Below, piece after piece: positions 25,161 to 38,477 of a DNA stretch of 40,164 nt. The notes below the pieces were generated by a model. The model worked only from the letters and a program-made list of their open reading frames with translations, did not search any database and was not told where the DNA came from. The position numbers were made by a program, and so were the translations under genes. Source of the stretch: Actinomycetes bacterium (GTDB taxonomy: Bacteria; Actinomycetota; Thermoleophilia; Solirubrobacterales; Solirubrobacteraceae); assembly GCA_021820105.1 (NCBI GenBank), contig JAKAED010000017.1, forward strand, positions 1-40,164. The letters are read 5' to 3'. The stretch's first letter is position 1. Every line of letters begins with the position of its first letter.

Positions 25161-27059
25161 TTACTTCCTGAGCTGCCGCGTCAGCGACCGCTCCGTAGCG
25201 CGAAGTTGCGTCAACCGCCTATGGTCGGCCTTCCGGGCCGCCTTGCTCAGGTGGTGGGACGCGAGCTTCTTCTGCACCGCCTTGATCTGATGCTTGACAC
25301 TGATCAGCCTGCGTTCGATCCTGGCGATCTTGGCCGACACCTGCGACGTCACGGCAGCAGACTGGCTGGTGCTCGGTGAGAACACCACCGGGCTGCTGGT
25401 TCCCTGGGTCGCCCCGATCAGCACCGGCGCCGGGCCGCTCGTGAGCACGGGTGCCACGACGGTCACGGGTGGTGCGGTCTCAGGCGCCGGCGGGTCGATC
25501 ATGAAGGTCACCTCAGTCACGATCCCCTCAGACATCAGCACGGACGCGCTGGATGAGGTACTCGCCACCAGGGTCGCCTGATTGGTCGGCGTCGGGACGC
25601 CTCCCTCAAGGACCTCGACGTTGGTCGGAACGACCGTCGGCGATCCCATGTACCGGTCGCTTGGCGGCAGGGCGCCACCAGCGATCGTCACCTTCGAGTT
25701 GAAGGCGAACGGCACTGGATCGAGCGTGCACTGAAGCGCCGTGCTGCTGAGGTTGACGTTGATCGTCTGGGTTCCGTTCACCGTGAACGGCACCGTCCCC
25801 GCCGCAGCGTTGTCGGTCGGCATCAGGCAGATCTTGAGCGTGCCCGGGTCCGCGGCCATGTCCGTGTAGGTCACGGTCGTCTCACCCGCACCGGCGATCA
25901 CGCGGATCGTGCGGTTCGGAAGGCTGAGCGAGCCAGGAACAATCGGGCTCATGCCCTGAGAGTTGCTGGTCGGGCTCACACCGATCGATGCCACCTTCGT
26001 GCCGACCACGATCCCCTCGGTGATGTTCACCTGGGTACCGGCCCGCACGGCTCCGACGATCTGGCAGCTGCCGGCGGTCAGTCCGATTGAGCTGCTGACC
26101 GCAGTGGGTCCGGCAGCGCCGCTAGAACTGAGCGTGAACGGGAACTGCGTGGTCGGGGTTGGTGACCCGGTCCACGCCTTGCACACCTTCACGGTTGACA
26201 GAGCGTCCGTGTAGGTGACGATCGTCTGATTGGTGGTGTCTCCTGCCTGGACAACCTCATATGACGTTCCCTGTGCCAGATTCGGCGCCGGGCTTGTCAA
26301 CATGTTGCTCCCGTTGGAGGTCGCCGTGATTGCCGTCACGAACGTCGTACCCGGCTCCACCGTCTGAACGACCCCAGCTGGGACCGTGATCGGGCCGCTG
26401 CAGCCCAGTCCGGCGGACGAGATCGTCGCCGAAGCGGTGGTTGACCACGGCAGGTCATAGGCGCCGGTCTTGGCGTCGTAGACGTTGATGTCAGAGCTCT
26501 GGCTGGTCACGTTGAAGTTGTACGTACCCAGCAACGACGGTGAGTTGGCATCCGGCCGCTTGCATACCTCAACGACTCCTGTGACCGGGTCGTTGGTGTA
26601 CTGGACGGTGGTGGTCATCGACTTATCACCAGGGCCTGGTGCCGGATTCACCGACAACGTTGCCATGCCGGTGACCGACGATGATGGCGTCACTGTCCCG
26701 GGGTCACCCTGCGTCGGGGTGATGCTCGAGACACTGAACCAAGGCGCTGACTTCTCTGTCACGGTTACCGTCCCAGCAGGGACAAGGAGCGGCTCTGTGC
26801 AGACCTGCGGTCCGCCCTGCAGCGCGTTGAGGCTCACGGTCGTGCTCCATTCGCCACTGCTGAGCTTGTACCAGAAGGTCCCCTGGTACATCGGCGCACC
26901 TGCGGGCCCGGCCCTGAAGGTCTTGCAGATCTCGGCGTACCCGAACTTTGGTGGGTTCGTTGAAGCGCCTGCAAGCGCCGGCGCCGCGGCTCCCAGCACA
27001 CCCGCGAACGCACTTCCGAGCACCAAATTCCGAGCGATCACACGGATACGTGTCCTCAT
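25161..27059 (-). CDS. Secreted four-module surface protein with C-terminal coiled coil
   Basis: The 632-residue protein has a signal peptide (LVLGSAFAGVLGAAAPALAGA) and then four Ig-like modules that I can align by eye. Each begins with a strand x-V/I-C (YAEICKTF, VVEVCKRP, TVKVCKAW, TLKICLMP). Each has a second Cys mid-module (QVCTEPL, GLGCSGPI, GSCQIVGA, LQCTLDPV), and the first three end with TVxYT-like strands. This suggests one disulfide per module. A Pro/Val/Thr linker follows, then a basic coiled coil of about 60 residues (KIARIERRLISVKHQIKAV onward). There is no LPxTG or lipobox. It is probably cell-surface associated with an unknown ligand. It is translationally coupled to a 34-codon ORF. 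Confidence 0.75.
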   Translation of the reverse strand: MRTRIRVIARNLVLGSAFAGVLGAAAPALAGASTNPPKFGYAEICKTFRAGPAGAPMYQGTFWYKLSSGEWSTTVSLNALQGGPQVCTEPLLVPAGTVTVTEKSAPWFSVSSITPTQGDPGTVTPSSSVTGMATLSVNPAPGPGDKSMTTTVQYTNDPVTGVVEVCKRPDANSPSLLGTYNFNVTSQSSDINVYDAKTGAYDLPWSTTASATISSAGLGCSGPITVPAGVVQTVEPGTTFVTAITATSNGSNMLTSPAPNLAQGTSYEVVQAGDTTNQTIVTYTDALSTVKVCKAWTGSPTPTTQFPFTLSSSGAAGPTAVSSSIGLTAGSCQIVGAVRAGTQVNITEGIVVGTKVASIGVSPTSNSQGMSPIVPGSLSLPNRTIRVIAGAGETTVTYTDMAADPGTLKICLMPTDNAAAGTVPFTVNGTQTINVNLSSTALQCTLDPVPFAFNSKVTIAGGALPPSDRYMGSPTVVPTNVEVLEGGVPTPTNQATLVASTSSSASVLMSEGIVTEVTFMIDPPAPETAPPVTVVAPVLTSGPAPVLIGATQGTSSPVVFSPSTSQSAAVTSQVSAKIARIERRLISVKHQIKAVQKKLASHHLSKAARKADHRRLTQLRATERSLTRQLRK

Positions 27060-28353: not shown

Positions 28354-28620
28354 TCAGGTGAACGCGTCGCCCGGTTTCCAGCCCTCCCGCGGACGAGTCG
28401 ATAGAAGGCGCGTGTAGGGGTGCTGCGCGGGGTCGAGCACGGCGTCGGCCTGACCGCGCTCGACCACCTCGCCGCCGCGCATCAGCACGCCCTCATCGGC
28501 GATCTGGCGGACCACGCCGAGGTCTTGGGTGATGAAGAGGTAGCTCACCCCTCTCTCGTCACGGATGTCGCAGAGCAGGTTGAGAATCTGCGCCTGCACC
28601 GCGACATCGAGCGAAGAGAA
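28354..28620 (-). pseudogene. Remnant of an oligopeptide ABC transporter ATPase (OppD/DppD-type)
   Basis: The surviving part reads SSLDVAVQAQILNLLCDIRD, then YLFITQDLGVVRQIADE and QHPYTRLLSTRPREGWKP. This corresponds to the D-loop, H-loop and C-terminal peptide-transporter signature. Walker A, the signature motif and Walker B are absent, with a TGA at 28623-28621 directly upstream. The switch His is Gln (TQDLG instead of THDLG). It cannot be functional and is a 5'-deleted relic. Confidence 0.8.
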
Positions 28621-28652: not shown

Positions 28653-29030
28653 ATGTCGGGCATGGTCCGGCGAGTTGAGGATGTAGTCGTCGGGGCTGGT
28701 GACTGGTTCCTCTGCATGCAGGGTCTGGCCGACGACATGCCCGGCAGCCTCGCCGGCTTCCGGTTCAATCTGATCGGCCGCATCGATCACCTCAGCGGCA
28801 GAGTCAGCACCCACGACGTGGGCGTCGCGTCGGCCACGCAGGAGCCGATCTTCGTGCCGCGGCCCGGAAGCGTCGATGAGGGCGACGGCTACGTGCTCGC
28901 GCTCGTCAACCGCTACGCCGAGATGCGCTCAGACCTGCTGGTGCTCACGGCCGATGAGCTCTCCGGCTACCGCCGGCCGCAAGCGCGCGAGCCGGGCGAT
29001 GCCACCGCATCCCTGATTCCGAGACGGTGA
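28653..29030 (+). pseudogene. Remnant of a carotenoid oxygenase (RPE65-like)
   Basis: The translation at about 28710-28965 (IFVPRPGSVDEGDGYVLALV, EMRSDLLVLTADELSG) matches the C-terminal region of carotenoid cleavage dioxygenases, where EPxFVPRPG...DEGDG is conserved. The blades carrying the iron-ligand histidines upstream are missing, and the sequence leaves the family after DELSG. It is truncated at both ends. Confidence 0.7.
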
Positions 29031-29127: not shown

Positions 29128-30087
29128 TCAATGGCCAAGGCCGAGAACGAGGAGGCCCAGCAAGTCGTATGCGATGTTGGCCGCCGCCACCGCTGTCGCA
29201 CCTGCAGGATCGTACGGCGGCGAGACCTCGACCACGTCGGCAGATACGACCGGAACCTGATTGGCTAGGCCCAGCACGATCGCGAGGAGTTCGCGCGTCG
29301 TCATTCCGCCCGCCTCGGGCGTCCCTGTACCGGGCGCAAAGGCTGGGTCGAGGCAGTCTATGTCCACCGTGACATAGACCGGGGGCCTCAGGTGCTCGAC
29401 AGCGAGTGCTATCGCACCGGTTACACCGACGGTGTCAAGGTCGCGGGCGAGCAGGGTTGTGAAACCGAGCTCCGCGTTGTCCGCCATATCGGTATTGCTG
29501 TAGAGGGATCCGCGTAGGCCGATTTGAACGGAGGTGGCGGCATCTATCAGCCCTTCCTCGGCGGCACGCCGGAACATGGTTCCATGTGTGAGCTTCGAGC
29601 CGAAGTAGGAGTCCCAGGTGTCGGTGTGCGCGTCGAGTTGGAGTAGCGACAGCGGACCGTGAACCCCGCTCGCAGCCCGCAGGAGCGGGAGCGAGACGGA
29701 GTGATCGCCTCCCAATCCGAGAACCCGAGCCCCGGATTTGTGCAGTGCTGCCGCGGCGTCTTCTATGGCGCGGTGGGCCTCGATGATGTTGACCGGGTTG
29801 GCCGCTGCATCCCCCGCGTCAACGACTTGATGAACGGCGAATGGATTGAGGCCGAGCGGCTCGTTATAAGGACGCAGCAGCAACGAGGCTTCACGGATCG
29901 CCCCGGGTCCGTACCGCGAGCCCGCACGAAACGTCGTACCACCGTCAAACGGTGCCCCAAGGATCGCAACATCGGCGCGTCTGACCTGGTCCATGGTCGG
30001 TACGCGGGCGAACGTCCGAAACCCTGCGAACCGCGGGACGACAGCGGCGTCGACCGGGGGGATGATCTCGGGTTCTACAGCCGTCAT
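29128..30087 (-). CDS. Agmatinase-family ureohydrolase
   Basis: The 319-residue manganese enzyme hydrolyses a guanidino compound to an amine and urea. All metal motifs are present: GGDHS with H129, DAHTDT with D152/H154/D156, THGTMFRRA, VDIDCLDPAFAPGTGTPEAG, and VEVSPPYD. The family covers agmatinase, guanidinobutyrase, guanidinopropionase, formimidoylglutamase and guanidine hydrolase; the residue pattern alone does not fix the substrate. The ATG overlaps the stop of the CE4-type gene as ATGA. It is last in the NCS1-deiminase-CE4-ureohydrolase operon, so its substrate may be the product of those enzymes rather than agmatine. Confidence 0.92.
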   Translation of the reverse strand: MTAVEPEIIPPVDAAVVPRFAGFRTFARVPTMDQVRRADVAILGAPFDGGTTFRAGSRYGPGAIREASLLLRPYNEPLGLNPFAVHQVVDAGDAAANPVNIIEAHRAIEDAAAALHKSGARVLGLGGDHSVSLPLLRAASGVHGPLSLLQLDAHTDTWDSYFGSKLTHGTMFRRAAEEGLIDAATSVQIGLRGSLYSNTDMADNAELGFTTLLARDLDTVGVTGAIALAVEHLRPPVYVTVDIDCLDPAFAPGTGTPEAGGMTTRELLAIVLGLANQVPVVSADVVEVSPPYDPAGATAVAAANIAYDLLGLLVLGLGH

Positions 30088-30989
30088 CTGCTTGTCCTTT
30101 GGTCACGGATCCCGTAGTCGGGGTCCAAAGCCGATCGCAGGCGCCTCGCGCTCGCAGCTGGTAAGACGTCGCGTGAATACTCGGCCACTTCTCTGGCCGT
30201 CGCAAACCAAACCCCACCGAGGCCGCGCGCGAACTCGACGAAGCGCCCGATGTTCCGCGACCGCGCCGGGCGCCCCGAGAGGAACGGGTGCATCGTCAGC
30301 ACTTCGAGGCAGCCTTCCTCGTGAGCGGCCTCAAGTTCGCCTGTCCACAGCTCGAGTAACTTACGAGGAGGCTCCAGAGCGCTTCCGAGTGGTGGGTCAA
30401 CGAAGAATCCGTACTGCTCCCAGTCATCGAGTGACCAATGGACCGGCAGCTCAACAAGCGTGCCGGCATCAGAGCCGAGTAGATACGGCACATCGTCATC
30501 CATCAGGCTCGAGTCGTACGCAAAACCAGCAGCCGCAAGGATCTCGGGAGACTCAAGGCTGAGCATCCACCACGGCGCGCGATAGCCGACGGGTCGTGCT
30601 CCGATTAGCGGCTCCAGGCGCTCGACGGACCGCTCGATCACCGAGCTCTGCCCGGCCAGATTGAGATCGTGCGGGAGCTCGTGCAAATAGCCATGACAGC
30701 CGACCTCATGACCGTCGGCAACGATCCGACGAACGGTGTCGGGGTAGCACTCGGCCGTGAATCCAGGGACAAAGAACGTGGCCTGGACCTCGGCCTTCCG
30801 GAGTTGCTCGAGTAGCCGAGGGACGCCGACCCGTGGACCGTAGCTTTGGTGACTCATCGTCGTGGCATGAGTCGCATATTTCCGGTCGACCTGCAGGATC
30901 GCCGATTCCGCATCGACATCGAAGCTCAGCACTGCCGCGCAGTTGCTGCCTTCTGGCCATCTGAAACGTGGCAGTGGCGCTGTCGTCAT
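30084..30989 (-). CDS. CE4/PuuE-type polysaccharide deacetylase-like hydrolase
   Basis: The 301-residue protein has the NodB fold in the PuuE / HP0310-like subfamily: AVLSFDVDAESA with D24 and D26, MSHQSYGPRVGVPRLLEQL, VQATFFVPGFTAECYPDTV, GHEVGCHGYLHELP with His99 and His103, and GYRAPWWML. Members of this branch act on small cyclic amides (allantoin in PuuE, cyclic imides) or on peptidoglycan. With a permease and guanidino enzymes in the same operon, ring opening of a cyclic ureide or guanidine is the more likely job. It is joined by ATGA overlaps to the genes on both sides. There is no signal peptide, so it is cytoplasmic. Confidence 0.85.
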   Translation of the reverse strand: MTTAPLPRFRWPEGSNCAAVLSFDVDAESAILQVDRKYATHATTMSHQSYGPRVGVPRLLEQLRKAEVQATFFVPGFTAECYPDTVRRIVADGHEVGCHGYLHELPHDLNLAGQSSVIERSVERLEPLIGARPVGYRAPWWMLSLESPEILAAAGFAYDSSLMDDDVPYLLGSDAGTLVELPVHWSLDDWEQYGFFVDPPLGSALEPPRKLLELWTGELEAAHEEGCLEVLTMHPFLSGRPARSRNIGRFVEFARGLGGVWFATAREVAEYSRDVLPAASARRLRSALDPDYGIRDQRTSR

Positions 30990-31885
30990 GCCGACTCCCG
31001 CCGCAGTTCCTGGCAGGAACAGTGCACGCCGCCGCCCGCCAATGCGAACTGGTCATACTCGATCGCAATCACGTCAAGGCCCTCTGACTCCAGCCGAGCG
31101 TTGACCGTGGTGTTGTGAGCCATTGAAAGCACACGGCCCCGCCCCAGATTGACGAGGTTTCCGCCCAGCTGCACGCAATCTCGGTACGCGAGCGGGATCC
31201 AGCTGATTCCGCGCGCCTTGAGAAAGTCGAGGACGTAGTCCCCCAGGGCGTCTTCGCACACGAGCGCCAGTTTCTCGGCAATCATCAGCAGCGTCGCATC
31301 TAGGTGTACGAACTGCGGAGCGAGCGGCACGGTCAGCGCGTCCCACCCCTCTGCCTCCATCCACCCCGCGACCTGCTCGGCGCCCTCCTTGGTCGAGCGG
31401 TTGCCTGCATAACCAAGGATCACGGACCCGGGCTCGATGATGCCGAAATCTCCGCCCTCGAAGTGGCCAGCGGTCACCCACTTCCAGATGGGTGTTTGTT
31501 CACGTGCATAGAAGCTCGCTACCACTGCGTAGTCCCGTCGTCGCGGAGGCGTCTGGATGCTCGCGACGACCGGCCCCCAAGGCGTGACGAAGCTCGAGTC
31601 GCGGGCGAAGACACTGCTCGTCAGCCCCTCATCGGCATCAAGGAAATGGCACCGGACCCCCGCCCGCTCGAACGCGTCGACCATGCCGCGGTGCTGCGCG
31701 AGCGCGGCCTCCCGGTCAAAGCGGACCCCGGTACGGTCCTGGTTCGCGAAGGTGACAGCGGAGATTGAGTTGAGCGGGACCCAGCGGAAGTTGTCCGGGC
31801 GTGCGAGCAACACCTCAGCAAGCGCTCCCGTCTGGTTGTCCAGTGACCATTTGATCTCCCGCTCCGCTCCGACTGGGTCACTCAC
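30986..31885 (-). CDS. Guanidino deiminase / dimethylargininase-like enzyme (amidinotransferase superfamily)
   Basis: The 299-residue protein has the pentein-fold guanidino-modifying residues: FARDSSFVTPWG (Asp), TAGHFEGGDFGII (Glu/Asp), VHLDATLLMI (His) and GGGVHCSCQEL near the C-terminus with the nucleophilic Cys at about 289. Relatives include dimethylarginine dimethylaminohydrolase, arginine deiminase and amidinotransferases, all acting through a Cys-amidino intermediate. It is shorter than arginine deiminase (about 400) and near the dimethylargininase size. The GTG start at 31885 has GAGG upstream. Its stop overlaps the CE4-type gene (ATGA), and the permease gene ends 90 bp upstream. Confidence 0.88.
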   Translation of the reverse strand: MSDPVGAEREIKWSLDNQTGALAEVLLARPDNFRWVPLNSISAVTFANQDRTGVRFDREAALAQHRGMVDAFERAGVRCHFLDADEGLTSSVFARDSSFVTPWGPVVASIQTPPRRRDYAVVASFYAREQTPIWKWVTAGHFEGGDFGIIEPGSVILGYAGNRSTKEGAEQVAGWMEAEGWDALTVPLAPQFVHLDATLLMIAEKLALVCEDALGDYVLDFLKARGISWIPLAYRDCVQLGGNLVNLGRGRVLSMAHNTTVNARLESEGLDVIAIEYDQFALAGGGVHCSCQELRRESA

Positions 31886-31975
31886 CCGCGCCTCGCTTTG
31901 ACTGATGCCATCTATACGCGCCAGAGCGATTCTGCGGCAGTGACGTCCGGCGTGACATTTGCGCCCGGATGGCCA

Positions 31976-33436
31976 TCATGTCTCCGCCGGTTCGGGGACA
32001 GGCGCTTCCGAGGCTGAGACCACCGCGCGGCCGCGCTTGAGACGCTTACGGGTGAGCCCGCAATACACGAGCCCGCTCGCGAGAATCGCCGTAAGCCACG
32101 AAAAGTCGGCACCGTTCGTCGCAACGGAGATTGGCCCACGGAAGAGAGATACGCTGCCGTATTCGAAAGCCCACCCGGCGACCAACCCGACGAGCAGTGC
32201 GAACAGCGAATCCCACCTGACGTCTCCGTAACGGGATTTCTGGGGGGCGTCGAACAACGCCTCGACATCCGCTCGGCCTACGTGGATCACACAATAGTCG
32301 ACGAGACTGATCGCGCCCCAGGCAGCTGTCCAGATGACGAACGAGTTCATGTAGTTCGTGAAGGAGTTGGCAAATTTCGTGGAAGCGAGAAACGCAACCA
32401 GAACCCCAGACGCGATGAGGCCGGTGAGCAGGCTGCCGACCCACCGCTTGAGCTTGATGCCGCCCGCCAACATGCACAGCGGGGCCGAGTAGACGGACTC
32501 AACGTTGACCGCGACGGCGCCGTGCATGATCACAACCAGCACCGGGATCGTCATCACTCCAAACAGCGATGCCACAAGCTGAGCAGGATCGGAGTTCGTC
32601 GAGGAACTCGCCATCGCAGCTCCAAGAATGCCCAGCCAAATGATCGGGATGAAGGTCCCGATGGACGATGCCCAGTAGAGCTTTCGCTCAGTAGTGCCCG
32701 CGCGTGTAAAGCGAGAGTAATCCGACGCCCAGGCCACCCACGAGAAGCCCCAGCCGATTCCGACGGCCGTCATGAATTCGCTGCCAGCACTCCAAAGTGC
32801 CGCGCCATGAACTGTCGAGTGGTTCCAGACGATGTGCCCCTTGGCGAACGCCAAGACAGTCATGACAGCCATCACTACGGCGAGCACGGGAACCGTCCAT
32901 TTCTCGAAGGTACGGATGGCGTAAAAGCCGAGCGTTCCCACCGCAATCTGAAAGACCATGATGAAGGCAGCCACGGCGTACTCGACAGCGTGGTTGTTTG
33001 GGAGACCAAGCCTGTGCAGGCAATAGGTGGCCAGGTTGAGGACAACATAGGTGTTGAGACCGATCCACGAAAGCGTGATAAGCGCCTGGAGGATCGACGG
33101 GATGTTGTTTCCACGCCTGCCAAACGCCATCCGCCCGAGAGCCAACTGCGACACGCCCGTCCGGTTCCCCATGAGGGTGAAGAATCCAAAGATGAGCGCT
33201 CCAGCTGCCTGTCCGATCAGCATCAAGAAGATCGACTGCACCAGACTGAGACCAAGTTCCGGCCCGATCGCACCGACAACCCAGCTGGTCGGCGTGATGT
33301 TGGCACCACACCAGATCCAGAATTGCTGCCACGCGGTCGAGTCTCGATCGGCGACTGGGATTGGCTCGATCCCATGCTGATCTACCGTGAGCGCATTTTG
33401 CAACTCGCCAGCTCTACCGAACTCCGTTGCAGACAT
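31976..33436 (-). CDS. NCS1-family permease (purine/cytosine/allantoin/hydantoin type)
   Basis: The 486-residue integral membrane protein has about 12 hydrophobic segments. NCS1 marks include WQQFWIWCGANITPTSWVVG at the first helix, GFFTLMGNRTGVSQLALGRM, GRRGNNIPSILQALITLSWI, WASDYSRFTR and the long C-terminal pair of helices. Family members import nucleobases, allantoin, hydantoins or vitamins with H+ or Na+. The start is the ATG at 33436, with GAGAGGA 6 nt upstream; the open frame further upstream is basic and non-homologous. It heads the operon of guanidino/ureido hydrolases, so its substrate is probably theirs. Codon use is less GC-extreme than in the left half of the window. Confidence 0.92.
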   Translation of the reverse strand: MSATEFGRAGELQNALTVDQHGIEPIPVADRDSTAWQQFWIWCGANITPTSWVVGAIGPELGLSLVQSIFLMLIGQAAGALIFGFFTLMGNRTGVSQLALGRMAFGRRGNNIPSILQALITLSWIGLNTYVVLNLATYCLHRLGLPNNHAVEYAVAAFIMVFQIAVGTLGFYAIRTFEKWTVPVLAVVMAVMTVLAFAKGHIVWNHSTVHGAALWSAGSEFMTAVGIGWGFSWVAWASDYSRFTRAGTTERKLYWASSIGTFIPIIWLGILGAAMASSSTNSDPAQLVASLFGVMTIPVLVVIMHGAVAVNVESVYSAPLCMLAGGIKLKRWVGSLLTGLIASGVLVAFLASTKFANSFTNYMNSFVIWTAAWGAISLVDYCVIHVGRADVEALFDAPQKSRYGDVRWDSLFALLVGLVAGWAFEYGSVSLFRGPISVATNGADFSWLTAILASGLVYCGLTRKRLKRGRAVVSASEAPVPEPAET

Positions 33437-33682
33437 GCCCGTTCCTCTCCTCTTCCTCTGACTTCTACCGCTTTGTCTGCGCGGCCGCGAGGTCATTCCC
33501 CTCCCTCCAGTCGCGACACTCGTGGTCACTGCATGCACCGCGCAAGCTCGCTGGGCCCTCGTGCGTGCTCCGAGCTAACTCGATCCTGGTGCAGCGGCCG
33601 TCCTCAACCTTTGAGGAACAACCCCCGTGGACCTTCGCCCTTGCGTCTCTTGATGCGATCCGCCTCTCCTCTAACGGCTTAA

Positions 33683-33706
33683 GGACAACCTAACGTCAGG
33701 TCGTCC
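33683..33706. promoter_or_regulatory. Inverted repeat at the NCS1 operon start, likely operator
   Basis: GGACAACCT (33683-33691) and AGGTCGTCC (33698-33706) form a 9-bp inverted repeat with one mismatch around 6 bp. It runs into the 8-bp palindrome GTCCGGAC (33703-33710). The inferred transcription start of the operon lies inside it, so a bound GntR dimer would block initiation. As RNA it would be a hairpin at the very 5' end. Confidence 0.45.
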
Positions 33707-33711
33707 GGACA

Positions 33712-33741
33712 AGTATGAGGAGCTTGCCTCCACGCTGTCAA
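33712..33741 (-). promoter_or_regulatory. Promoter of the NCS1-deiminase-CE4-ureohydrolase operon
   Basis: On the minus strand TTGACA (33741-33736) and CATACT (33717-33712) are 18 nt apart. Transcription would begin near 33705, leaving a leader of about 270 nt before the permease ATG. The -35 is inside one copy of a direct repeat. Confidence 0.45.
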
Positions 33742-33774
33742 GTCGACGCTGTACCTTTGTATGGGTGTCAAGTC
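33736..33774. repeat. Two TGTCAAGTC direct repeats 30 bp apart
   Basis: TGTCAAGTC occurs at 33736-33744 and 33766-33774, three helical turns apart. The first overlaps the -35 of the NCS1 operon promoter. They lie in the 442-bp space between the permease and GntR genes. That space also holds a 7-bp hairpin at 33601-33617 (TCCTCAA, CCT, TTGAGGA) and no ORF I trust. Confidence 0.45.
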
Positions 33775-33878
33775 TCCGTCTGCACCAGAGCGTCGATCAA
33801 ATGCATGCATTCCAGGCGGGCATTTCTGCGTCGAGTCGGCGTGGGCCCAAAAGTCCGCGGTCCACTCACTAACGGCGG

Positions 33879-34694
33879 ATGGGTCTGGTGAGCCGATCGG
33901 AGTCCCCATGGCCCGGAAATGGGCTCGACCGTCGCAGTAGCGTGCCCCTCTACTACCAGCTGCAGGAGATCCTCCACCAGCAGATCGCTTCAGGCCGTTT
34001 CGGCGTTGGAGATCCGTTGCCATCCGAGGGCGAGCTATGCCGGATGTTCGACGTCAGCCGCATAGTGGTCAGGCAAGCTCTCGAAGTGCTCGCGGACGAC
34101 GGCGAGATCGTGCGGTTGCAGGGCAAGGGCACGTTTGTCGCAGAGCCCAAGCTCGACCTCGCTGCCGGCGGGCTCTTGCGTGTACTGACCTCGGCAGACC
34201 CGGGCCTTTATGAAGTCGAGGTACTGGACGCTCACGTAACTCCAGTGGAGGAGGGCTATGGAACGCGGTTCGGCGTAAACGAGGCGCTAAGGATCGACTG
34301 GTTGCTGCGCCTTCGTGGTGAGGCGACCGCGACGGCCTATTCCTTTCTGCGCCCTGGTTCCGTCCCAACGCTCGAGCGCGCCGCGATCCGGGGTGCGCGA
34401 CTCGGCGATGGAAAGAAACCGAGGCTAGGCATCCGACTCGACCACCCGGAGATCGGTGTTTCGACCAGCCAGGCAACCCCGTACACCGCTGAGCGTCTCG
34501 GCCTCGTAGTTCGCGCGCCTGTTTTTCTCGTCGACATCACCGAGCTTGCGCGATCTGGACCCGAGCCAGGTCGAGTTGTAGAGATCGCTCGCGTGATTTA
34601 CCGAAGCGACACCCTCACGCTCCAGTTTGAGACGACCCGCACCGCCGGTGTGCAGCAGATCGCGGCACGGATCTCAGCGATCTCGCCGGTGTGA
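33879..34694 (+). CDS. GntR/HutC-type transcription regulator with UTRA domain
   Basis: The 271-residue protein has the GntR winged helix at about residues 20-90 (VPLYYQLQEILHQQIASGRF, PLPSEGELCRMFDVSRIVVR, DDGEIVRLQGKGTFVAEPK). A UTRA ligand-binding domain follows (RIDWLLRLRGEATATAYSFL, TPYTAERLGLVVRAPVFLVD, TLTLQFETTR). HutC-type regulators usually repress and are released by a small catabolite. It is divergent from the permease operon, with the putative operator between, so it most likely controls that operon and senses its substrate or an intermediate. The ATG at 33879 has only a weak ribosome site. Confidence 0.9.
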   Translation: MGLVSRSESPWPGNGLDRRSSVPLYYQLQEILHQQIASGRFGVGDPLPSEGELCRMFDVSRIVVRQALEVLADDGEIVRLQGKGTFVAEPKLDLAAGGLLRVLTSADPGLYEVEVLDAHVTPVEEGYGTRFGVNEALRIDWLLRLRGEATATAYSFLRPGSVPTLERAAIRGARLGDGKKPRLGIRLDHPEIGVSTSQATPYTAERLGLVVRAPVFLVDITELARSGPEPGRVVEIARVIYRSDTLTLQFETTRTAGVQQIAARISAISPV

Positions 34695-34935: not shown

Positions 34936-35787
34936 ATGGCTATCGGTGTGGCGCTAGGCGGTGCACTCGGCATCGGGAGCGCGGACTTCCTCGGCGGCCT
35001 GTGCGCTCGTCGCTCAGGCTCACTGGCCACCTCGTTCTGGATGAACCTTGTTGCCCTCGTGGGCTTGACTCCGACCTGGCTGGTCGTGCAACCCCAACTG
35101 TCGACGGGCCGCGCTCTCGGAGCCCTCGCGGCTGGCGTCGTGAGTGCCGCGGCAGTAAATCTCATCTATGCCGCGCTTTCAACCAGCCTGATGAGCTTGG
35201 TAGCCCCGGCGATTGCGTGCGGCTCGGCCCTAGTACCAACAGCGGTTGCCGCGGTAGTCGGCAACGCGCCGTCAGTCGGCAACGGCATTGGTATTGCATT
35301 GGCACTTGTCGGGATCGTTTCGGTCACCTGGATGCCGCGCGCGGCGGCCCCGCGCTCTAGGCTCGAGCGCCGGGCGTTGATCCTCACGCTGTTGGCATCG
35401 GTGTTTAGCGGTTTGTCGTTCTCGATCGCCCTGCTCGCCGTCCGCGGGGGAACAGCGCAGACTGCCGTCGGCGTCTCAGCGCTCGAACGACTAGGTGCGA
35501 CCTTCGCTGCGCTGCTTCTCGCAACCCGACTGGTCCGCGGCCGGCGGCTTGTCGTCCCTGGCGGGGCAGCCTTGCTCGGCGCCGGGTGTCTCGATGGCGC
35601 TGGCGTCACTCTTCTGCTGGTGTCCGCGACACTTGGCAACTTTGCGGTCAGCGCTGTGATCGTCTCGTTGTACGCGGTGGTCACCGTGTTGCTCGCGCAA
35701 ATCGTCCTCCGAGAGCGCATCGCCAGTCACCAGATATTCGGCATCGGGGCAGCGGTCCTCGGCGTCGCTCTGCTCTCCACCGGCTAG
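34936..35787 (+). CDS. EamA/DMT-superfamily transporter
   Basis: The 283-residue protein has about ten hydrophobic helices in two homologous halves, as in the drug/metabolite transporter superfamily. The first half starts GVALGGALGIGSADFLGGLC; the second starts ILTLLASVFSGLSFSIALLA and ends AVIVSLYAVVTVLLAQIVLR followed by E, the characteristic conserved Glu/Arg region. Such proteins usually export amino acids or metabolites. The ATG at 34936 has GGGG about 8 nt upstream. It lies between the GntR gene and a decayed hydantoinase on the same strand, and its substrate is unknown. Confidence 0.85.
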   Translation: MAIGVALGGALGIGSADFLGGLCARRSGSLATSFWMNLVALVGLTPTWLVVQPQLSTGRALGALAAGVVSAAAVNLIYAALSTSLMSLVAPAIACGSALVPTAVAAVVGNAPSVGNGIGIALALVGIVSVTWMPRAAAPRSRLERRALILTLLASVFSGLSFSIALLAVRGGTAQTAVGVSALERLGATFAALLLATRLVRGRRLVVPGGAALLGAGCLDGAGVTLLLVSATLGNFAVSAVIVSLYAVVTVLLAQIVLRERIASHQIFGIGAAVLGVALLSTG

Positions 35788-36031
35788 ATACAGAGCCCGG
35801 CGCGAGACCGATCGGACAGGGGTCGGGAGCGCGTTGCTGACCCGGGCGGCGCGGCGGGTCGCAATGACCGACGCGCGATTGGGCGGGCTGGCCGATCTGA
35901 GGCAGCGACGTCGTGGTCACGATCCAGGCCTATAGCGAAGATGTCTTCGGGCCTCCGCTTGTCGCATTTCCGAGTGGGCACCTTCGCCGAAGCCGCACTC
36001 ATGATCAACGAGAACTCTTATTGCAAACAGT
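35788..36031. other. Intergenic stretch with an unidentified coding relic
   Basis: Around 35903-35975 the plus strand reads DVVVTIQAYSEDVFGPPLVA before the frame breaks, which looks like old coding sequence but matches no family I can name. The rest holds no gene, RNA or clear hairpin. Confidence 0.35.
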
Positions 36032-37175
36032 GCCGCGATCTTCACCCGCGACGGTGGTGGGTCCGCGAAGTTCGACCCTGATGACGAGTTAGCCGGTGAA
36101 GTCCTGATCGAGGGCTAGAGGATCCCTGCGGTCGCACAGGTCGGTATGCTCGACGACGCGAGCGTGATCGGTTCCTAGGGGTGTCTTGTGCTTTCGCAGC
36201 TTATCGACAATCACACACCTGTCGATGCCGTTCATGGGCAGGATTTCCTCAGACGACTGCGACACCGGCACCCTCGCGGCGACCGCGGCCGGCGTTGACT
36301 AGTCTGGTCGATTTCACGATCCAGCGCGAGCCCGACAACCCACGCTCGGTGCTGGCGCGGTGGTCCGCTCGCGCCGATGGGGCCGCCTACGCCGATTGCG
36401 GCTTCCACACGGCGATCAAGGATGGAAGGAGCCGATGCTCGAGGATGTGGGGACGATGGTGGCGGCCGGAATCTGCTCGTTCAAGCCGTTCATGGCCTAC
36501 AGGGGTGTGCTCATGGCGTGCGACGACGTGCTCACCGTATGCATGGAGCGCGTGCCATAAATGCGCTGACGATGTGCGTGTGGTGAGCGGTGACATCATC
36601 GACCTGCTGGTCAAACTGCCGCTGGTGTACGGAGGCAACTCGGCTACCCACCACGCGCTGAGGCGAACGGAGTTCGCTGAAACAGGGGACACGTGCCGTG
36701 CCGCCAGGATCGCTGAGAACCTCGGCGCGCCGCTGTTCGTCGTACAGGTCACTCGCGCCCCTTCAGCTGCCGAGATCGAGGTCTCACAGCAGCGCGGCTG
36801 TGATGTCACTGGGGAGACCCGCGTCCAGCATCTGACCAACTCGATCGAGGCTCGCAAGCGGTCGGGTGTCAGGAGCCGCCGCTACGTCTGCTTCCCCTCC
36901 CCTGCTCGACGCGTTCAACGACGACCTGATGTGGGAAGACATCCATCGCGGTGTGCTCGAGTGCAACTCAGCCGACCACTGCCCGTTCACCGACTGGCAG
37001 AGGACTCGTGGCTCGCACGATCTCAGCCCGATCCCGAACGGATTGGGGAAGATCCAGAACCGGCCCCGGAAGCTCTGAGAGAAGGGCGTGTCGAACGGCA
37101 CGCTGACCCGCTCGCAGCTCGTCGACCGCACCTCGACCGCGGTGAGATCCTCAACTCGAGGGGGCACGGCCGTTT
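36032..37175 (+). pseudogene. Decayed hydantoinase/dihydropyrimidinase
   Basis: Pieces of one protein appear in family order but in changing frames. They are EVLIEG-stop-RIPAV (TAG at 36116), LIDNHT then HLSMPFMGRISSDDCDTGTL (shift in the CACACACC run at 36212-36219), SLVDFTIQREPDNPRSVLAR (shift at about 36300), and KEPMLEDVGTMVAAGICSFK then PFMAYRGVLM (shift at about 36425). DIIDLLVKLPLVYGG to NLGAPLFVVQVTR, then PPLLDAFNDDLMWEDIHRGV and SADHCPF, and finally GVSNGTLTRSQLVDRTSTA complete it. There are at least five frame changes and two in-frame stops. The active enzyme would open hydantoin or dihydropyrimidine rings. It abuts the intact M20 hydrolase that would use its product. Confidence 0.88.
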
Positions 37176-37202: not shown

Positions 37203-38477
37203 ATGAGCGGAGTCGCCAGACTCACGCTTGACCCGGCGGCGGTGATCGCCGATCTCGACGAGATCGCGACCCAGAGCGGCGGACGCTTCGCTGGCGCAAA
37301 GCGGCTCGCCTGGACCCCCGACTGGCTCGCCGCCCGCGCCTGGCTGCGCGGCAAGCTCGAGGAGATCGGCCTACCGCTGTCGGAGGACGCGGCCGGTAAC
37401 CTATGGGCCACCGTGCAGGGCGAGACCGACGCGTTTCTGATCGTCGGATCGCACATCGACGCGGTGCCGGAAGGGGGCTGGCTAGACGGTGTACTCGGCC
37501 TCATGACCGCGCTGGAGACCGTGCGCAAGCTTGCCGCTCTTCCCAGCCCGCCGCCGATCAGCGTCCGCTTCGTCGACTGGGCTGACGAGGAGGGTGCCCG
37601 CTTCACGCGCAGCCTGCTTGGCTCCTCCGCGTGCGCAGGGACGCTGGTGCCGGGCGATGTGCAAGCGCTGCGCGATGCCGGCGGCACGACGCTCGCCGAC
37701 GCACTCGCGACCTGCGGCGTCGATCTCGACCGGGCCGTCGGCGCTTCCTCATCGCTGGATGGCGCGATCGGCTACCTCGAGCTCCATATCGAGCAGGGCC
37801 CGGTTCTGCTGGATGCCGGGCGGCTCGCGTCGGCCGTCAGCGGGACCGTGGGTGTCGAGCGCCACCTGATCACCTTCACCGGCCAGGCGGCGCACGCCGG
37901 CTCGACGCCGATGCACCTGCGTCGAGACACGCTCGCCGCGGCCGCGCAGGCGGCGCTCGCAATCCGTCAGACCGCAATCGATCGCGGCGGCGTCGCGACC
38001 GTCGGCAACCTCTCCTCCACCCCCGGTGTGATCACCGCAGTGGCCGGCCGCACGGAGATGCAGCTTGACCAGCGGCACCTCGACCCGGCCACGCTCGCGG
38101 CGATGCTCGCCGACGCGCTGACCGCATGTCGGGCCGCGGCGGACGCGTTCGGCTGTACGCTCGACGTCAAGCGGGTCTTCGCCGCCGCACCCACCCATTT
38201 TCATCCGGCGCTGGTCGGAGCTGCGCGCGCCGCGATCGCCGATGCTGGCGGCGGCTACGGCGACCCGATTCCCAGCGGCCCGCTGCATGACGCAACGGAG
38301 ATCGGGCGCATTCTCCCGACCGCGATGATCTTCGCGCAGTCAGATCCGCCGCTCTCACACGCTGCGATCGAGAACTCGCCTGACGCGGCGCTGCGGGTGG
38401 CGATCGATGCTTACGGACGCACCGTTGCCTGGGCCTTGGCAAACCATGCCGTGTTGGCTGGAGATGACGTGCCGTGA
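37203..38477 (+). CDS. M20-family N-carbamoyl-amino-acid / allantoate amidohydrolase
   Basis: The 424-residue binuclear metal hydrolase has family ligands VGSHIDAVPEGGWLDG (H84, D95), DWADEEGARF (E129/E130), LHIEQGPVL, the dimer-domain AHAGSTPMHLRRD, and SGPLHDATEIGR near the C-terminus. Relatives are HyuC/AtzF-like L-N-carbamoylases, beta-ureidopropionase and allantoate amidohydrolase, which remove a carbamoyl group as CO2 and ammonia. It follows the decayed hydantoinase gene directly, recalling a hydantoin or pyrimidine pathway pair whose first enzyme has been lost. No Shine-Dalgarno sequence precedes the ATG. A 7-bp hairpin (38482-38499) follows the stop. Confidence 0.92.
   Translation: MSGVARLTLDPAAVIADLDEIATQSGGRFAGAKRLAWTPDWLAARAWLRGKLEEIGLPLSEDAAGNLWATVQGETDAFLIVGSHIDAVPEGGWLDGVLGLMTALETVRKLAALPSPPPISVRFVDWADEEGARFTRSLLGSSACAGTLVPGDVQALRDAGGTTLADALATCGVDLDRAVGASSSLDGAIGYLELHIEQGPVLLDAGRLASAVSGTVGVERHLITFTGQAAHAGSTPMHLRRDTLAAAAQAALAIRQTAIDRGGVATVGNLSSTPGVITAVAGRTEMQLDQRHLDPATLAAMLADALTACRAAADAFGCTLDVKRVFAAAPTHFHPALVGAARAAIADAGGGYGDPIPSGPLHDATEIGRILPTAMIFAQSDPPLSHAAIENSPDAALRVAIDAYGRTVAWALANHAVLAGDDVP

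Follow-up and report, generated by a model that had tools for sequence, protein, structure and literature searches.

A predicted catabolic operon joining a putative ring opener to two guanidino enzymes in a member of the Solirubrobacteraceae

We analysed a 40,164-nucleotide stretch of DNA (the window; contig JAKAED010000017.1 of GenBank assembly GCA_021820105.1, from an actinomycete of the family Solirubrobacteraceae). It is contig 39 of an assembly of 264 contigs and 4.0 Mb. Four genes on its minus strand encode an NCS1-family permease, a pentein-fold guanidino enzyme, a CE4-fold hydrolase and a ureohydrolase, and lie divergent from a gene for a GntR/UTRA regulator (Table 1). We propose, with a probability of roughly 0.45, that they form a regulated catabolic operon in which a ring opener is combined with two guanidino exits for a small cyclic acyl-guanidine or ureide-like ring. 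The enzyme families are all known; their combination seems undescribed. Our searches of open-access literature, which leaves most subscription journals outside it, gave no paper on such an operon or pathway as judged by titles and the starts of abstracts.

Gene content, arrangement, family membership, catalytic residues and recurrent neighbourhoods can be read from the sequence. The five genes were already recognized in an initial annotation made from the sequence alone, and all are present where it placed them, with Pfam matches above the cut-offs (Arginase, Polysacc_deac_1, ADI and Transp_cyt_pur for the four operon proteins). Both of the ATGA overlaps described there, pentein/CE4 and CE4/ureohydrolase, were seen, joining the last three genes; the gap between the NCS1 and pentein genes is 90 bases. 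The permease most likely starts at the ATG at 33436 rather than the GTG at 33538. GC content of the four genes is 60-65% (70-78% at third codon positions), near the window mean of 65%.

The best solved relatives of the ureohydrolase are the Pseudomonas aeruginosa 3-guanidinopropionase GpuA (3nip) and guanidinobutyrase GbuA (3nio), ahead of agmatinases. The metal-binding motifs are intact (GGDH at 126, DAHTD at 152, DIDCLD at 242). Arg72, in the aligned segment LLLRPYN, matches GbuA Arg72, and the position of Escherichia coli agmatinase Trp68 falls at a gap beside it. Tyr161 aligns with GpuA Tyr157 (Met161 in GbuA), which we take to be a specificity residue, a point for which our literature search gave no confirmation. 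Arg72 of the adjacent GbuA subunit caps the active site and can contact the substrate carboxylate, a GbuA-like human enzyme cleaves guanidino acids and not agmatine (PMC9772407), and Trp68 of the E. coli enzyme lies in the substrate groove (PMC8125230). With the Arg and Tyr that mark guanidino-acid hydrolases, the window protein is probably such a hydrolase rather than an agmatinase. The protein falls narrowly under the subfamily model PRK02190.1 (297.4 of 302). Among ureohydrolases linked to CE4 genes elsewhere, Arg72 and Tyr161 are both retained at loci L055, L059, L066 and L071, and not at L062.

The nearest relatives of the ureohydrolase (75%, 68% and 64% identical) come from the same order or family, and the window protein groups with them in a tree (99/98), separate from GpuA. 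The gene for the 64% relative adjoins aminotransferase and polyamine-type ABC genes, with a CE4 gene about 6 kb off. In two same-genus genomes (L218:6614-9747 and L219:6226-9289), a ureohydrolase of the same residue type (52-53% identical) lies about 600 bases or less from an NCS1-like gene, itself a 29% match only. At the same-class locus L222, a 54% identical ureohydrolase is found together with an F420 oxidoreductase, an M20 enzyme, a dihydropyrimidinase, a semialdehyde dehydrogenase and an aminotransferase, which is a beta-alanine context.

Compared with solved structures, the CE4 protein scores 264.9 bits against 3rxz (function unknown), 131.5 against 3qbu (HP0310) and 72-83 against PuuE-type chains, with chitin and other peptidoglycan deacetylases far behind (43.3 bits or less). 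We take 3rxz to be a Mycobacterium smegmatis protein. D24, D26 and H103 are invariant, and H99 nearly so, in an alignment of 14 sequences that includes the window's. The score against the PuuE allantoinase equivalog TIGR03212 is 73.4 bits, below the cut-off of 424.6. By sequence, the protein sits closer to the PuuE/cyclic-imidase group than to exported deacetylases, and these solved relatives support the small-ring-opening role that had been proposed for it. For HP0310, the published work reports no activity on the polysaccharide substrates tried or on acetylated polyamines, no predicted signal peptide, a structure suggesting a small ligand, and polyamine importer genes near its homologues, as the authors remarked (PMC3084791). 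HxnM, a proposed cyclic imidase that follows an OYE reductase and a dehydrogenase in fungal nicotinate breakdown, is described as structurally like 3qbu and 64.2% identical to a Pseudomonas putida cyclic imide hydrolase homologue (PMC9304392). Relatives of the window CE4 protein are flanked by OYE and SDR genes, as fits an HxnM-type route.

A CE4 search across the phylum gave a match in 11 of 396 genomes, the window's own among them. Ten stretches were viewed: four contain a ureohydrolase gene and six contain SDR genes (SDR_a or SDR_b type), and three have no such SDR, ureohydrolase or NCS1 gene. Plasmid regions (12 viewed of 33 records) carry a ureohydrolase gene in three cases, an NCS1 permease gene in three and a DUF1989-type gene in five. 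On the P. aeruginosa plasmid pF061_1, the CE4 gene stands 87 bases after a gene for a ureohydrolase that shares 271 of 315 positions with GpuA, and genes for an aminotransferase, presumably of class III, and a CoA-acylating semialdehyde dehydrogenase follow 5-6 kb on.

The permease scores below the cut-offs of the NCBIfam NCS1 models. Genes for relatives 42-44% identical lie less than 4 kb from CE4 genes in Nocardia, Rhizobium leguminosarum and Embleya, a 38% identical relative adjoins CE4 in Arthrobacter, and another adjoins CE4 at locus L064 (four of eight NCS1 records viewed). The proposed tie between permease and ring opener thus recurs elsewhere, which supports import of the ring that the CE4 protein would open.

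Membership of the third enzyme in the pentein superfamily is clear from its predicted fold and catalytic Cys-His-Glu. Glu143, Asp146, His194 and Cys289 are the same in every sequence of two alignments (20 and 30 sequences); the AlphaFold2 model (pLDDT 86.4) has amidinotransferase, ADI and DDAH as its nearest folds, and Pfam ADI and DDAH_eukar both match. The protein lies under all NCBIfam equivalog cut-offs listed (dimethylargininase, 65.2 of 300; arcA, 42.2 of 489.1; arginine dihydrolase, 34.2 of 450). From a scan of our genome collection the best 80 of 462 confirmed stretches were kept, and six of 22 pentein records from a separate listing were viewed. The 35 closest penteins among the best 80 are 51-65% identical and proteobacterial (Hyphomicrobium, Roseovarius, Methyloligella, Methylocapsa and others), and their main conserved neighbours are a LysR regulator and polyamine-type ABC genes. 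At L081, L087, L092, L098 and L100, a CE4 gene and a polyamine-type ABC transporter are near the pentein gene, with SDR genes too at four of these five. We counted 25 CE4 matches in 13 of 16 pentein-bearing genomes, from which about 0.1 would fall within the stretches by chance against the five seen; the 16 of 35 loci were chosen to include all five with CE4, so the rate is biased, and three of the five belong to one genus.

Two further cluster types contain penteins. Six of the 80 loci (the query locus L146 included) have SDR genes, a creatininase, a DUF1989 gene and the pentein in order, with an M20 gene at one of them (L110). At L146:3219-10861 (Hyphomicrobium facile), LysR, SsuA-type ABC genes, two SDRs, creatininase (TIGR04448, 383.5 bits; cut-off 235), DUF1989 and pentein genes form one cluster, possibly a creatinine-related route. 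In Ruegeria-like Rhodobacteraceae, the pentein is found with M20, a ProXVW-type (glycine-betaine-type) ABC transporter and two ureohydrolase paralogues, as at L117:8925-17817 (Ruegeria), which also has LysR. Pentein, ureohydrolase and ring opener thus keep meeting in varying pairings, and both of the complementary guanidino enzyme kinds posited by the initial annotation recur with a ring opener elsewhere.

An M20 enzyme, overlooked in the initial annotation, may also serve the set. Its gene starts 2.5 kb beyond the regulator, directly after a decayed dihydropyrimidinase gene, and the product exceeds the TIGR01879 cut-off of 204 (Table 1). It scores best against a model for an allantoate amidohydrolase subfamily but misses the cut-off there (303.1 of 399), and the score against the AllC allantoate deiminase model TIGR03176 is 204.4 bits, below 597.75. 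Pieces of the decayed gene, some with internal stops, are 42-55% identical to dihydropyrimidinases of relatives (tblastn, best E 4e-71); a whole-genome search for another dihydropyrimidinase gave just one 26% match and short weak ones. The genes of the five closest M20 kin (65-72% identical) adjoin dihydropyrimidinase genes, one of them confirmed by the profile TIGR02033, with a TIGR03842 F420 oxidoreductase at two of the five loci. The window M20 protein is, by these comparisons, probably a beta-ureidopropionase-type enzyme that lost its ring opener. That the CE4 protein, via the pentein, now feeds it is an attractive conjecture.

Of 11 stretches from relatives in the same order, 10 pair a pentein gene (39-47% identical) with an adjacent M20 gene, whose product is 39-51% identical to the window M20 protein. 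By eye, an Orn/Lys/Arg decarboxylase-like gene is adjacent in at least five of them, one confirmed (OKR_DC_1, 191.8 bits). This recurrent pentein, M20 and decarboxylase-like cluster, seen at L035:8155-11809, L029, L033, L034 and L036, is a possible new arginine or agmatine route in its own right. We considered the M20 protein as a co-inherited partner of the window pentein and dropped the idea on its closest kin, keeping it as a possible functional partner.

In the proposed pathway, for which we infer every substrate and the order of steps, the NCS1 permease would import the ring and the CE4 protein would hydrolyse its ring amide, giving a linear guanidino acid. By one exit, the ureohydrolase would split this acid into urea and an omega-amino acid. 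By the other, the pentein would deiminate it to a ureido acid and ammonia, and hydrolysis of the ureido acid by the M20 enzyme would again yield the omega-amino acid, with CO2 and ammonia. The GntR protein presumably represses the operon as long as neither ring nor acid is bound. Three lines point to beta-alanine as the likeliest amino acid: Tyr161, the genes for aminotransferase and semialdehyde dehydrogenase close to related ureohydrolases, and the dihydropyrimidinase neighbours of the M20 kin. The guanidino acid would then most likely be 3-guanidinopropionate, and the ring would most likely be the cyclic amide of this acid (2-iminodihydrouracil, or dihydroisocytosine) or a substituted form. 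This beta-alanine version is tentative and on balance unlikely.

Each part of the proposed system has a known counterpart. The ureohydrolase shares the metal-binding motifs and the Arg72 and Tyr161 equivalents of GpuA and GbuA; unlike theirs, its gene shares an operon with genes for a ring opener, a pentein and an NCS1 permease. The CE4 protein belongs to the sequence group of HP0310 and PuuE and has the metal-site residues of 3qbu and PuuE, and it resembles HxnM and the P. putida cyclic imide hydrolase in the OYE and SDR genes around its relatives (HxnM being likened by description, not by sequence), whereas in the window it is partnered with two guanidino enzymes. Reductive pyrimidine catabolism by dihydropyrimidinase and beta-ureidopropionase offers the same logic of ring opening, ureido acid and beta-alanine, and the M20 kin stand in such a context; here, however, the dihydropyrimidinase is decayed, and the proposed route has CE4 and a guanidino group instead. 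Creatinine degradation (creatininase, creatinase, N-carbamoylsarcosine amidase) likewise opens a cyclic guanidine and removes guanidino nitrogen, and creatininase genes occur near related penteins. It differs in that this genome gave no creatininase (PF02633) match at 88.89% completeness (the control matched in 6 of 14 genomes), and in that a pentein is present in the clusters having creatininase. DDAH and arginine deiminase share superfamily fold and catalytic residues with the pentein, which differs from them in lying below every listed equivalog cut-off.

Several observations weigh against the proposed operon function. NCS1, pentein, CE4 and ureohydrolase genes occur together in no other neighbourhood viewed among relatives of any of the four, so the check suggested with the initial annotation, a search for the same four-gene neighbourhood, gave no second case; neighbour labels came from a BLAST set of named genes, and unlabelled neighbours may hide more members. 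A CE4 gene is found at only five of the 35 closest pentein loci (five of 80 overall), several of these 35 contigs being short. The CE4 proteins at the pentein-bearing Hyphomicrobiales loci fall in a different subclade from the window's (36-39% identity in the three compared), so either the pairing has more than one origin or the substrates are not the same. None of the 35 has a ureohydrolase that best matches the window's, and four carry another; the 66% identical pentein of a same-class genome has no CE4, NCS1 or ureohydrolase gene nearby; and the stretches fetched for the two nearest ureohydrolases (75% and 68%) gave no CE4, pentein or NCS1 match. The window operon lacks nearby SDR genes, which are common in related clusters. 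The ureohydrolase passes the NCBIfam agmatinase equivalog TIGR01230 (218.3 bits; cut-off 174.3). Amidinotransferases are top fold matches of the pentein and score as high as hydrolases, and because of this and the equivalog cut-offs it misses, hydrolysis is what we infer for it. Because the five closest M20 kin are not beside penteins, the part of M20 in the route rests on proximity and biochemistry. The genome, 88.89% complete, gave no urease alpha match, and dihydroisocytosine is, to our knowledge, not well known as a natural compound. HP0310 was inactive on allantoin as well (PMC3084791).

Some of these points would suit independent enzymes under one regulon, a reading that we consider rather unlikely: general nitrogen scavenging by a cyclic-imide importer and hydrolase, a guanidino-acid hydrolase, and a pentein whose substrates are methylated or resemble arginine. 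Thirty of the 35 closest pentein loci show no CE4 gene, the conserved neighbours there being mainly LysR and polyamine-type ABC genes; the two nearest ureohydrolases stand alone; and NCS1-CE4 pairs exist without pentein or ureohydrolase. Against scavenging stand the ATGA coupling of three genes, the single divergent regulator, and the repeated pairing of CE4 with each guanidino enzyme kind elsewhere. Distinctly unlikely, in our judgement, is a creatinine-type route in which the CE4 protein replaces creatininase, the pentein acts as a creatine deiminase yielding N-carbamoylsarcosine, and the M20 enzyme releases sarcosine. The creatininase clusters described above, with M20 at L110, speak for it, and the CrnT transporter is NCS1-like. 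CrnT is a creatinine transporter of Corynebacterium glutamicum (PMC8864220), and DUF1989 proteins include a carboxyguanidine deiminase (PMC11271267). However, this genome gave no creatininase match, the penteins at creatininase loci are just 49-51% identical to the window's, and the GbuA-like human enzyme is reported as inactive on creatine and guanidinoacetate (PMC9772407), so the window ureohydrolase would have no part in such a route.

A guanidinohydantoin or iminoallantoin substrate, with the CE4 protein opening a hydantoin ring, the ureohydrolase and pentein treating the guanidino group and the M20 enzyme acting like an allantoate amidohydrolase, appears improbable. The enzyme classes parallel allantoin catabolism, NCS1 includes allantoin permeases (by Pfam family title), and the weak PuuE likeness of CE4 and the best model of M20 point the same way, but the M20 kin adjoin dihydropyrimidinase, the AllC cut-off is missed, and the ureohydrolase residues indicate simple omega-guanidino acids. 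An agmatine/putrescine route, in which the pentein would be an agmatine deiminase, the M20 protein an N-carbamoylputrescine hydrolase and the ureohydrolase an agmatinase, is highly improbable. It would account for the pentein-M20 pairs with adjacent decarboxylase-like genes in order relatives and for the TIGR01230 match. Yet the ureohydrolase has Arg72 and no Trp there, neither NCS1 nor CE4 has a role, and actinobacterial homologues of one decarboxylase group were judged probably not polyamine-related (PMC8503589); on Arg72 and the lack of a part for NCS1 and CE4, we rejected a plain agmatine/putrescine operon as the preferred account.

As to origin, the operon looks assembled from parts, because the closest relatives of the pentein and of the ureohydrolase lie in different lineages. 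Transfer of the whole cluster as one was rejected: the closest penteins are proteobacterial, with one from the same class (66%), and the ureohydrolase kin are in the same order or family. Such mixed origins also weigh against the proposed route.

The inverted repeat noted earlier at the promoter exists but is modest. Single-base shuffling of the 441-base region matched the score of the 24-base palindrome, GGACAACCTAACGTCAGGTCGTCC, in 36 of 2000 trials, ten such palindromes occur across the 40-kb window, and a repeat search using exact seeds did not report it. The consensus scan that picked out TTGACA-18-CATACT gave two such promoter-like sites in 9.7 kb against 1.0 expected in shuffles. Since the palindrome sits just downstream of the minus-strand promoter-like pair, it is a fair candidate, and no more, for the operator of the GntR protein.

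Beyond the ureohydrolase end of the operon, a fragment like the C-terminal part of the RPE65/carotenoid oxygenase family (28653-29030, 56.8 bits) is apparently a gene remnant. A short frame at 28354-28599, by eye the end of an oligopeptide ABC transporter ATPase and with no Pfam match, is probably also a remnant, and at 25161-27059 lies a gene for a 632-residue protein, by eye a repetitive surface protein, with no Pfam match.

Table 1. Coordinates and supporting matches of the operon, its control region and adjoining genes in the window.
Feature	Positions	Strand	Support
Ureohydrolase, predicted guanidino-acid hydrolase (GpuA/GbuA type)	29128-30087	minus	Pfam Arginase PF00491, 298.7 bits
CE4-fold hydrolase, PuuE/cyclic-imidase group, proposed ring opener	30084-30989	minus	Polysacc_deac_1 PF01522, 60.7 bits
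Pentein-fold guanidino enzyme, ADI/DDAH superfamily	30986-31885 (GTG start)	minus	Pfam ADI, 66.6 bits
NCS1-family permease, first gene of the operon	31976-33436 (open frame to 33538)	minus	Transp_cyt_pur PF02133, 143.5 bits
Imperfect palindrome, candidate GntR operator	33683-33706		10/12 pairs
Promoter-like pair TTGACA-18-CATACT, upstream of operon	33741-33712	minus	Consensus scan alone
GntR/UTRA regulator, divergent from operon	33879-34694	plus	Pfam GntR 65.2 bits, UTRA 28.3 bits
EamA-family transporter, possibly unrelated	34936-35787	plus	Pfam EamA, 50.1 bits
Decayed dihydropyrimidinase, pieces in three frames	36014-37144	plus	tblastn with dihydropyrimidinases of relatives
M20 hydantoinase/carbamoylase-family amidase, intact	37203-38477	plus	TIGR01879, 273.7 bits

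At its most specific, the proposed operon would represent an undescribed guanidino counterpart of reductive pyrimidine breakdown, in which a 2-amino- or 2-imino-pyrimidinone enters through the NCS1 permease, is opened to 3-guanidinopropionate by the CE4 protein as a cyclic acyl-guanidine hydrolase, and ends as beta-alanine, a form of the proposal that we put forward as unlikely to hold in full. The parallel exits would run via urea (ureohydrolase) and via N-carbamoyl-beta-alanine (the pentein, with an M20 enzyme left from a decayed dihydropyrimidinase operon). In a broader form, bacteria would draw on a common set of interchangeable modules, with either creatininase or CE4 opening the ring and with a pentein (alone or together with M20) or a ureohydrolase dealing with the guanidino group. 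If this is true, such clusters would be mislabelled wherever their genes carry the names 'polysaccharide deacetylase', 'agmatinase' and 'dimethylargininase', and the HP0310-like CE4 group, which has a solved structure and no known substrate in PMC3084791, would gain candidate substrates. A class of cyclic guanidino nutrients for bacteria would be predicted.

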